Origin: Gammaproteobacteria bacterium
GTDB lineage: Bacteria; Pseudomonadota; Gammaproteobacteria; Eutrophobiales; Eutrophobiaceae
Direction: 5' to 3'
Assembly: GCA_030829955.1 (NCBI GenBank)
Contig: JAURNY010000025.1
Span: forward strand, 1-44,675
DNA length: 44,675 nucleotides
Shown: positions 22,036 to 27,902 of the stretch, in pieces
How positions within the stretch are numbered: the first letter of the stretch is position 1
Layout of the letters: the number at the start of each line of letters is the position of its first letter
Program-made: the position numbers and the translations under genes
The notes under the pieces: generated by a model
Seen by the model: only the letters and a program-made list of their open reading frames with translations
Told to the model about the DNA's origin: nothing
The model's database searches: none

Positions 22036-23607
22036 TTAATGCTCACGAGTGGCTTGAAAGCGAATATCAGGCCACTTTTCCATCATTAAATTAAGGTTTA
22101 CCATAGATGGAGCAAGATAAGTTAGATAATTTCCGCCATCAATAGAAAGGTTGTCTGATTGTTTAAGTTTAAATTCCTCTAACTTCTTTTCATCGTCAGC
22201 ATAAATCCAGCGCGCAGCGACAACAGGAATTGCATCATATGCACACTCTACTCCGTACTCCTCTTTTAAACGCCAAGCTACAACATCGAATTGAAGAACA
22301 CCGACCGCACCCAGTATCAATTCATTATTATTAATTGGTTTAAATACCTGAGTCGCGCCCTCTTCGCCTAATTGTACTAATCCTTTTTGTAATGATTTCA
22401 TTTTAAGTGGATCTTTCAACTGAACACGGCGAAATAATTCCGGTGCGAAATAAGGAATACCGGTAAAATTAAGTAATTCACCCTGTGTGAAAGTATCACC
22501 TACCTGAATAGTGCCATGATTATGTAAACCAATGACATCCCCTGGCCACGCTTCATCGGCCTGTTCTCTATTGCCGGCCATGAAGGTTACTGCGTTAGCA
22601 ATTTGTACATCACGCCCTATTCTGACATGCCGCATTTTCATTCCACGTTTATATTGACCGGAACATATCCGTAAAAAAGCAATACGATCACGATGAGCTG
22701 GGTCCATGTTAGCCTGAATTTTAAAAACAAATCCGGAAAGATTTTCTTCACTGGCAATAACTTGTCTCTCTTCGCTTACACGTGATTGTGGGCATGGCGC
22801 ATGCTCAATTAAACAATCGAGAAACTCCGATATGCCAAAGTTATGTAGTGCTGTTCCAAAAAATATCGGGCTTATTTGGCTTTTTAAAAAGGCATCTTGA
22901 TTAAATTCATTGTAAACACCTTTAATTAATTCAATCTCATCAGATAATACTTGCCAATCATCACCAAGTAATGTTTTCGCGTCATTGCTATGAAGACCAT
23001 TGATCATTTGATCATGTTTATCATCATCACGTTTATATAGTCTGATCGAATCATTTAATAAGTTATAAATGCCTTTTAGACGTTTGCCCATGCCGACTGG
23101 CCATGTAAAAGGTACACACTGGATACCTAATTCAGTTTCGATTTCATCAAGCAGATCGATAGGTTCCTTTCCTTCCCGATCAAGCTTGTTTATGAAAGTT
23201 ATGATGGGGGTATCTCTTAAACGACATACTTCCATTAATTTTAGCGTTCTATCCTCAACTCCCTTAGCCACGTCAATAACCATCATTGCTGAATCAACTG
23301 CGGTTAGTGTCCGATAAGTGTCTTCGGAAAAATCCGCATGCCCAGGTGTATCAAGCAAATTAATTACATGCGAAGAATACTCAAATTGCATAACCGAACT
23401 GGTGACCGATATACCTCTTTCTTTTTCCATCTGCATCCAGTCAGAGGTAGCGTGACGACTGGACTTTCTTGCTTTAACGGTACCTGCCATTTGTATCGCA
23501 CCGCCATATAAAAGCATCTGTTCTGTTACAGTTGTTTTACCAGCATCAGGGTGAGAAATAATTGCGAAGGTGCGACGTTTCTTTAATTGTTGTAATAATT
23601 TGGACAT
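22036..23607 (-). CDS. prfC: peptide chain release factor 3
   Basis: A 523-residue translational GTPase that removes RF1/RF2 from the ribosome after termination. G1 is SHPDAGKTT (about 18-26), the switch region [10 protein letters not shown]3 DTPGHADF, and G4 NKLD. Length and the [12 protein letters not shown] segment are those of RF3 and differ from EF-G. pdxJ lies 5 bp upstream, so it may belong to the end of the lepA-era transcript. Its end abuts rne with no space for a terminator. Confidence 0.96.
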
Positions 23608-25109: not shown

Positions 25110-26015
25110 TTAATTATCATAACCAAATAATTTCAGCGCCTGTTCTGAATCTGTCCATTTTTTCTTGATCTTTACCCAAGTCTTAAGGTTAACTTTTTTT
25201 GCAAAGAGCTTTTCCATATCGAGTCTGGCATCTTTACCAGCTTTTTTCAGGATTTCACCCTGTTTGCCTATAACAATATTTTTTTGACTTGCCTTTTCTA
25301 CCCAAATACAAGCATATATATGATAAACATCATTTTTTTCCTTGAAGTCATCTATGGTAATTGTTAATTCATAGGGAAGCTCATCACTTAAGCGCATCAT
25401 TAATTTTTCACGCAAATATTCGGCAGCAAAAAATCGTTCATTTCGATCGGAGATTACATCTTCAGGATATATGGGCATATTTGCGGGCAAGTACTTAATG
25501 ATTGCCTGTTCCAATGCCTGAATACCTTGTTTGTTTTTTGCTGATATAGGAAAGATTTCGTCAAAACTTGTTTTTGCTTGCAGGCTTTCAATAAAGGGCA
25601 AAAGTTTTGTTTTATCACCCGCTTTGTCTGCTTTGTCTGCTTTGTTAATAACAAGAAATTTCGCACTGGATCGCGATGATTGTAATAAATTCAAAACATG
25701 CTCATCCTGCTCTTGCCACTTTAAGGCTTCAACCATAAACAACAAAACATCAACATCTTGCATGGCAAAGGCGGCTTGTCGATTCATGTATTGATTAATT
25801 GCCTGTCTAGGAGTTTTTTGTATGCCCGGTGTGTCTATGAATACAATCTGTGCGTGTTCTAGGTTATGTATACCCAGGCAATGGTGGCGAGTTGTTTGTG
25901 GTTTTCTGGTTACGATACTTACTTTTTCATCCAGCATTGTGTTTAATAAAGTAGATTTGCCAACATTAGCCCTGCCAATAATACTGACATAACCAGAATG
26001 AAAACTTTGTTTCAT
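25110..26015 (-). CDS. era: GTPase Era
   Basis: A 301-residue GTPase that binds the 3' end of 16S rRNA in 30S assembly. G1 GRANVGKST (about 14-22), G3 DTPGIQ, G4 NKAD and a C-terminal KH domain with IVIGKQGEILKKAGKDAR. The G4 motif is extended by a repeated Lys-Ala-Asp (NKADKADKAGDK), encoded by a 9-bp tandem repeat. The ATG overlaps the rnc TGA as ATGA, so the two are translationally coupled. Confidence 0.97.
   Translation of the reverse strand: MKQSFHSGYVSIIGRANVGKSTLLNTMLDEKVSIVTRKPQTTRHHCLGIHNLEHAQIVFIDTPGIQKTPRQAINQYMNRQAAFAMQDVDVLLFMVEALKWQEQDEHVLNLLQSSRSSAKFLVINKADKADKAGDKTKLLPFIESLQAKTSFDEIFPISAKNKQGIQALEQAIIKYLPANMPIYPEDVISDRNERFFAAEYLREKLMMRLSDELPYELTITIDDFKEKNDVYHIYACIWVEKASQKNIVIGKQGEILKKAGKDARLDMEKLFAKKVNLKTWVKIKKKWTDSEQALKLFGYDN
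25621..25647 (-). repeat. 9-bp tandem repeat in era
   Basis: Three near-identical copies of GACAAAGCA/G (minus strand) encode Lys-Ala-Asp units directly after the Asn-Lys of the GTPase G4 motif. Being a multiple of three, copy-number changes would keep the frame. Confidence 0.6.
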
Positions 26016-26683
26016 TTTTTATTATTCATTTCAGAGATTAGTTTGTCATAAGCCAGTTTGGCTGCCGCCTGCTCTGCCTTGCGCTTACTTCCACCTTCAG
26101 CCAATACAGGTTCAGATAGGGAGTCTACATGACACTCAACTCGAAATAGAGGCTCGTGAGATGTACCCGATTTTTTAATATTTATATATCTTGGCACATT
26201 AATCTGTCTTGCTTGCAAATATTCCTGCAATTCAGTTTTTGCATCTTTTTTTATTGAAGATAAATCAATTTCTTCAAGATAAGTTTGATAGAGTGAGTAA
26301 ATAATGTCAGAACATGTATTCAAATCGGAATCAAGATAAATAGCACCAATAATTGCTTCTAGTGTATTAGCTAATACAGATTTTCTGCGCCAACCACCAC
26401 TTTTGAGTTCGCCTGCACCAAGAATTATTTGATTCTGCAAATTTAAGGACTTTGCAATTTCTGCCAAACGCTCACCTTTCACTAAGTAAGCTCGAAGACG
26501 CGTTAGTTGGCCTTCATCAGCGTCAGGAAATTTTTGGAAAAGAGCGGCTGCGATAACAAAACCGAGAATTGCATCGCCGAGAAACTCAAAACGCTCGTTA
26601 TTACAACTACCAACACTTCGATGAGTTAAAGCTTGTTGTAATAAAGATGTGTTGTTGAAATTATAATTTAGAAACGTGCTGAT
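26012..26683 (-). CDS. rnc: ribonuclease III, non-AUG start
   Basis: A 223-residue double-strand-specific RNase that processes rRNA and mRNA. The catalytic motif NERFEFLGDAIL (about 29-40, Glu33 and Asp37) and downstream GAGELKSGGWRRKS and LANTLEAIIGAIYLD, then a dsRNA-binding domain (about 154-222) with GGSKRKAEQAAAKLAYD. No ATG, GTG or TTG is in frame before the catalytic motif. The frame runs back to the TAA of the DUF4845 gene, and the first codon after it is ATC, 8 nt behind GGGGG. An internal GTG at 26482 would remove the catalytic motif. A one-base indel joining a TTG frame is the alternative. Confidence 0.88.
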   Translation of the reverse strand: MSTFLNYNFNNTSLLQQALTHRSVGSCNNERFEFLGDAILGFVIAAALFQKFPDADEGQLTRLRAYLVKGERLAEIAKSLNLQNQIILGAGELKSGGWRRKSVLANTLEAIIGAIYLDSDLNTCSDIIYSLYQTYLEEIDLSSIKKDAKTELQEYLQARQINVPRYINIKKSGTSHEPLFRVECHVDSLSEPVLAEGGSKRKAEQAAAKLAYDKLISEMNNKK

Positions 26684-27082
26684 TTAATCAACCCCCGTAA
26701 TTTCAATAGCTTCGTCAGTTTTAACTGTTAAATAAATATTTTTAAAAAGAATATTAGAGTTTTCATATGACACATGAAAATATCTCTTTTTACCGTCTTT
26801 AGATTTCTTGATTTTAACGTGTTCTTTTACATTTGAATCTTTAAAATAATAAACGTTATTAATATTTGTGTTTTTTAAAAACAATGATCGCATATCTTTT
26901 ATTGTTTTTCTTCTTTCTGCCGGCTGATTCATTACAGAATGCATAGAGCTTACAATACCTAAATGTTCGTTATAGAGTGGAAATAATCTCAAGCCAAATA
27001 AAATAAAGCATGCCAATATGGCTAACATCAGACAAATCCCTATAAACGTAATACCTTGCTGATTTTTTGCTGTCTTTATCAT
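26684..27082 (-). CDS. DUF4845 family membrane protein
   Basis: A 132-residue protein with a short positively charged start and one hydrophobic helix (about residues 10-31, ITFIGICLMLAILACFILFGL), resembling a type IV pilin-like leader, followed by a small periplasmic domain. This matches DUF4845, which in gammaproteobacteria commonly lies between lepB and rnc. Function unknown; it may be processed or secreted with LepB. Its TAA is followed in the same frame by the rnc coding region. Confidence 0.85.
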   Translation of the reverse strand: MIKTAKNQQGITFIGICLMLAILACFILFGLRLFPLYNEHLGIVSSMHSVMNQPAERRKTIKDMRSLFLKNTNINNVYYFKDSNVKEHVKIKKSKDGKKRYFHVSYENSNILFKNIYLTVKTDEAIEITGVD

Positions 27083-27104: not shown

Positions 27105-27902
27105 CTAATTTAGTACTTTGCCAATACGTTCAAAATCAATTCCACCACGCTGACCATCCCAGTTCATCCAGATCATAAACGCCCTACCCATCAGGTTCTC
27201 ATCCGGAACAAAGCCCCAGAATCGACTATCTTTACTATTATCACGATTATCTCCCAAAACAAAATAATTGCCTTCTGGCACGATCACCTCTAGTTCTATA
27301 GAGCCTGTGCGAGGATCAACCAAAATTTGATGATTGATATTATCTGTTAACGCTTCTGCAATCAGCTCATATCCACTCATCGCCATACCTGCACCACTTG
27401 CAATATATTTACCCATATTGTCTTGTACAGCTATTTTATCGTTAATATACAATACCTTGTCTCGATATGCGATTTTGTCACCAGGAATACCTACAACACG
27501 CTTAATAAAAGGTATGGAAGGATCTTCTGGATAACGAAATACGACAATATCACCTCGATCTGCTGTTTTATTATCGACTATTTTTGTGTGTAACACGGGA
27601 AGTCGTAAACCATATTCATATTTATTGACCAATATAAAATCGCCGATAAGTAATGTTGGCATCATGGAGGCCGATGGAATCTTGAACGGTTCAAATAAAA
27701 ATGAACGCAATATTAGTACAATAAAGAATATAGGGAAAAATGATTTCGAATATTCCACAATAAGTGGCATCTTCAGTTTTTCTTTGCTGACACCATCTTT
27801 TTCTGGTTTCGCTTTTCGTTCTACAAATAACACATAGGCAAGCCAGACCGAGCCACTTGCGAAACTTAGAAATACCAATAAAGCAGAAAAATCAAAATTC
27901 AT
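27105..27902 (-). CDS. lepB: signal peptidase I
   Basis: A 265-residue inner-membrane peptidase that removes signal peptides. Two hydrophobic segments lie at about 6-26 and 55-69; the catalytic Ser is in PSASMMPTL (Ser79) and the Lys general base in [12 protein letters not shown] (about Lys134); box E is [14 protein letters not shown]. The ATG overlaps the lepA TGA by 4 bp, suggesting coupling. Shorter than E. coli LepB (324). Confidence 0.97.

Follow-up and report, generated by a model that had tools for sequence, protein, structure and literature searches.

A proposed near-cognate start codon, conserved on the RNase III gene in a gammaproteobacterial clade

How does a cell translate a complete RNase III from a reading frame that offers none of the usual start codons? 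The question is raised by the window, by which we mean the whole stretch of 44,675 nucleotides analysed here, whose minus strand carries the genes lepA-lepB-DUF4845-rnc-era-recO-pdxJ in that order. The last codons of the DUF4845 gene are ACG GGG GTT GAT TAA (TAA at 26686-26684), and the rnc frame follows from 26683 as ATC AGC ACG TTT CTA AAT TAT and stays open to 26012. An earlier note on this DNA had pointed out that the frame runs back to this TAA without an ATG, GTG or TTG, and that its first codon is an ATC located 8 nt after GGGGG (26696-26692); both observations hold. The earliest canonical codon in frame is GTG 26482, codon 68 of the gene, which lies past the catalytic NNERFEFLGDAIL motif, and a working RNase III is therefore impossible from this GTG. 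The features needed for the argument are the following.

26012..26683, minus strand: rnc, a complete RNase III gene of 223 codons that opens at ATC (from the reading of the open reading frame and profile matches)
26681..26683, minus strand: AUC, the proposed rnc start codon (aligned with the ATA of relatives; the purifying pattern starts after it)
26684..26686, minus strand: TAA, the DUF4845 stop, immediately 5' of the AUC, with which it shares a frame (read from the sequence)
26692..26696, minus strand: GGGGG, the Shine-Dalgarno core, 8 nt from the AUC (predicted anti-Shine-Dalgarno duplex of -10.5 kcal/mol)
26684..27082, minus strand: the DUF4845 gene, with an ATG start, the probable coupling partner upstream of rnc (PF16137, 49 bits)
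25110..26015, minus strand: era, with an ATG start within an ATGA overlap with the rnc stop, an internal control (from the open reading frame)
27105..27902, minus strand: lepB, with an ATG start within an ATGA overlap with lepA, an internal control (from the open reading frame)

In profile searches, the product of the window gene matches TIGR02191 at 227 bits (cut-off 166) as well as PF14622, PF00636 and PF00035, and with its RNase III domain, catalytic motifs and dsRBD it is a bacterial class I RNase III. An Asn at the position of E. coli D114 was considered as an oddity and dropped, since it is the commonest residue at this position among the relatives too. The absence of a canonical start could be taken as the mark of a gene that is poorly expressed and decaying. 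However, the RNase III proteins of the clade described below are 59-65% identical to that of the window over their full length, their catalytic motifs are conserved and their genes show a strong synonymous bias, and we give decay next to no credence.

The family of the window is represented by 53 genomes, in 49 of which RNase III was recovered; the junctions were taken from stretches of genome sequence. A tree of RNase III places 19 species from four genera (g1, g4, g7 and g17), the window genome included, in one clade with a support of 99/92. A usable canonical rnc start, in frame and between the preceding stop and the ALTH motif, is absent in 18 of these 19 species, and the junction of each of the 18 holds AUA or AUC: mostly AUA, AUC in the window, and, in L005 and L039, GUA with AUC as the next codon. 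The sole clade member with a canonical rnc start is L009 of genus g17, which uses GUG in a GUGA overlap; the weak start is thus dispensable. For comparison, 100 rnc loci of the class that belong to other families were searched 15-45 codons before ALTH (a wide range, so that the 98 with a canonical codon may include chance ones), and just two lack such a codon. The contrast stands despite the wide search range, with a Fisher p of 4e-18 for 18/19 against 2/100 when related species are counted separately.

Elsewhere in the family, the other genera begin rnc at AUG, GUG or UUG, frequently as an AUGA or GUGA overlap. The rnc of L016, in genus g3 and outside the main clade, has ATA in an ATAG overlap after a long Shine-Dalgarno sequence (GGGGGAGGTG). 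One further rnc sequence, common to the genomes G016 and G024, offers AUU or AUC candidates only; its two copies (L018 and L015, respectively) have identical ends with these ATT/ATC candidates. G024 carries a second rnc with ATG (L071), and both genomes are probably mixed bins. As for the two loci from other families, L063 comes from a 0.4-Mb genome and has ATA after AGGA, while L028 (genome G047) has ATC candidates.

A sequencing or assembly error of one base could still mask a normal start in the window, or a -1 slip at CGTTTCTAA from a frame with a TTG could make use of one; both had been raised as options. The other frame does hold TTG ATT AAA TCA GCA CGT TTC TAA and would read MIKSARF(L), its TTG being at 26691-26689 and not, as first given, at 26692. 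Yet the unshifted N-terminus of the window protein, ISTFLNYNF, aligns codon for codon with ISNFIDYIF, ISKFINYEF and ISNFINYAF of relatives and fits them at each residue, so that neither a missing base nor a slip is required. The earlier note had named a normal start at the same position in relatives as evidence against an unusual one; compared across the clade, 17 of the 18 other members, all independently assembled, have no usable canonical start either. We therefore hold an error or a slip in the window to be very improbable. Shared by species of four genera, the lack of a canonical rnc start is neither a sequencing error nor the oddity of a single species.

The substitutions between close relatives indicate where the coding of rnc begins. 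Comparison of five sister pairs gives 18 synonymous and 17 nonsynonymous differences in the rnc-frame codons past the proposed start, against 0 and 16, respectively, in those ahead of it (Fisher p = 0.0003); the rnc frame is thus under protein constraint from about the proposed start onward only. This boundary bears on another earlier suggestion, that the UAA is read through to yield a DUF4845-RNase III fusion anchored in the membrane. The two genes of the window do share a frame, split by one UAA, but the DUF4845 stop is in frame 0 relative to rnc in the window alone. In the relatives it lies at +1, or once (L040) at +2, and a fusion is impossible there; 5' of the start, the rnc frame lacks a purifying pattern; and a Shine-Dalgarno-like sequence stands ahead of the start in every species. 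Readthrough is accordingly a most unlikely account of this junction, and fusion by readthrough or frameshift was rejected because the frames of DUF4845 and rnc differ among species.

The anatomy of the junction calls for some care. The DUF4845 stop of most clade members shares bases with the rnc start region, as AUAA, AUAG, GUAA or GUAG; the window has UAA and then AUC, adjacent and with zero shared bases, and hence no start-stop overlap of its own. At the overlaps, the last two bases of the RUA codon are set by the UAA or UAG of the DUF4845 stop, and its first base is the wobble base of a DUF4845 Gln, Glu or Lys codon. Because of this constraint from the DUF4845 frame, from which only the window, L040 and L007 are wholly or partly exempt, the conservation of AUA at overlaps is no independent proof of the start. 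The exact start is uncertain in L005 and L039, where GUA is the overlapping codon and AUC the next, and the start candidates of L002, L007, L010 and L034 lie two codons apart. Every clade member has a purine-rich, Shine-Dalgarno-like stretch ahead of the start, though a weaker one in L035 and L036, and the AUC of the window follows its GGGGG at normal spacing. With the start taken as the near-cognate codon closest to the stop, the predicted Shine-Dalgarno pairing has a median of -8.0 kcal/mol for near-cognate starts vs -3.75 kcal/mol for relatives with canonical starts (p = 4e-5, relatedness ignored). RNA structure at the rnc start was rejected as a contributor, no unusual structure being seen at the window junction, where the fold is little better than shuffles (z = -0.94).

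Other genes serve as controls. DUF4845 and era have canonical starts in 19 of 19 clade species, and some of the era starts lie in an AUGA overlap; it follows that AUG and UGA are not avoided in the clade; a general loss of either was rejected on the strength of these starts and of the lasting AUGA overlaps. An altered initiator tRNA reading AUA was rejected as well, as the initiator tRNA gene (L086), among at least 30 tRNA genes examined, is ordinary, with the anticodon CAU and three G:C pairs. The 16S rRNA gene was not found in the assembly of the window genome (G000), though at least 30 tRNA genes were. Among the family members read, the start of infC, the gene of IF3, is ATC, ATT or ATA, and near-cognate codons thus evidently serve as starts in these cells. 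In the window genome, infC (L103, contig 32 of G000, around 22518-22775) has its ATT after TGGAGG.

The reading that we favour, with a probability of about 0.86 in our estimate, is that rnc has a conserved near-cognate start, which would be aided by a strong Shine-Dalgarno sequence, coupled to DUF4845 termination and plausibly sensitive to IF3, and which would lower the amount of RNase III. We infer that the ordinary initiator tRNA begins RNase III at the near-cognate codon with a third-base mismatch (at AUC in the window and mostly at AUA in the relatives), while the Shine-Dalgarno sequence within the last DUF4845 codons would position the ribosome at this start. The ribosome translating DUF4845 would terminate at the same spot, and rnc initiation is probably largely coupled to this termination. 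AUC initiation coupled to termination had been one option of the earlier note, and among the options given there it is the one backed by the data. The weak start would keep the output of RNase III below that of DUF4845 and Era, and it should make RNase III sensitive to IF3, as for infC. From the comparison of genomes, we have high confidence that the near-cognate start is in use; we are less sure of a regulatory role, although the idea of weak starting as a regulatory feature, raised in the earlier note, is plausible. The most likely origin of such a start is an AUGA or GUGA start-stop overlap, as kept by several sister genera, in which a single G-to-A change would turn UGA into UAA and AUG or GUG into AUA or GUA.

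This one-step route from AUGA or GUGA to AUAA or GUAA would also suit a different view, in which the AUC or AUA start is real yet neutral: fixed by drift together with the switch to UAA, and tolerated through termination coupling without any regulatory meaning. It opposes only the regulatory part of the explanation above, and we take it as a serious possibility, if at somewhat less than even odds. The clade genomes are AT-rich (30-40% GC), L009 with its GUG shows that a clade member may have a canonical start, and the loss of RNase III, which the earlier note had called essential or near-essential, is tolerated by E. coli, where the enzyme is non-essential though its loss slows growth (PMC8708148). 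On the other hand, a single A-to-G transition at the AUAA or GUAA junctions would restore AUG or GUG and still leave a UGA stop, as used in AUGA overlaps elsewhere in these genomes. Such a reversion is seen in 0 of 18 species, yet G ends 10-42% of the purine-ending Lys, Glu and Gln codons in the same genes; moreover, the weak start is accompanied by stronger Shine-Dalgarno-like sequences. We read the lack of G at the 18 junctions as a suggestive but not conclusive sign of selection, since the 18 species are related.

Published work on IF3 and on weak starts indicates what control and what strength may be expected for rnc. Weak third-base pairs are disfavoured by IF3 (PMC10158994), non-canonical starts such as the GTC of Streptomyces sigR and that of infC are repressed by it (PMC5472188), and re-initiation in E. 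coli is also reduced by IF3 overproduction (PMC2268962). In S. aureus grown in poor medium, the yield from AUA and AUU starts was about 10% of that from AUG (PMC13009471). One could go further and imagine RNase III and IF3, both with near-cognate starts, as one translational regulon of this lineage whose members rise together when free 30S subunits outrun IF3, an idea that we offer tentatively and consider rather unlikely. If it were true, rRNA maturation would be tied to the supply of an initiation factor, and the LepA-LepB-DUF4845-RNase III-Era operon would have a built-in drop in output at rnc.

In E. coli, infC is under autogenous control by IF3. The infC start (AUU, AUC or AUA) resembles that of rnc in being a conserved third-base mismatch with a Shine-Dalgarno sequence, in the same family and genome, but the product is another one and the near-cognate start of infC is family-wide, whereas that of rnc is largely confined to one clade. 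E. coli pcnB reportedly has an AUU start (Binns and Masters, in 2002); there, as proposed for rnc, a weak start limits an RNA-processing enzyme, the product being poly(A) polymerase and not RNase III. Streptomyces sigR (GTC, PMC5472188) is likewise a regulatory gene with a lineage-conserved non-canonical start that annotation programs missed. Its first base is changed besides the third, and its start has been proven by mutagenesis and IF3 mutants, whereas that of rnc is known from sequence alone. The S. aureus genes ccpN (AUA), cvfC1 (AUU) and citZ (AUA) have starts resembling that of rnc, and those of ccpN and cvfC1 are conserved and follow extended Shine-Dalgarno sequences; they belong to a Firmicute and were demonstrated by ribosome profiling and reporters, and the available part of the source mentions no start-stop overlap (PMC13009471). 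The 4-nt AUGA and GUGA overlaps of the sister genera, a type for which re-initiation has been studied (PMC2268962), have the junction geometry of rnc with shared start and stop bases. The rnc junction differs from them by an A instead of a G, which gives a near-cognate start, and in the window by the adjacent UAA AUC.

A search of the open-access literature, outside which most subscription journals lie, found no earlier report of an AUA, AUC or other non-canonical rnc start. Conserved near-cognate starts have been described before, for a small set of genes; their occurrence on rnc would be new, as would the likely derivation from overlapping start and stop codons. Gene finders restricted to ATG, GTG and TTG would miss or truncate rnc in these genomes. 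Starts at AUU, AUC or AUA are known from no more than a few chromosomal genes of bacteria, several of which are regulated via that start; a lineage-wide AUA or AUC on RNase III would add a core RNA-processing enzyme to this small group and suggests that IF3 and rRNA processing are directly linked. The series of species, from the AUGA and GUGA of the sister genera to AUAA, AUAG, GUAA and UAA-AUC, suggests an evolutionary route by which such starts may arise.
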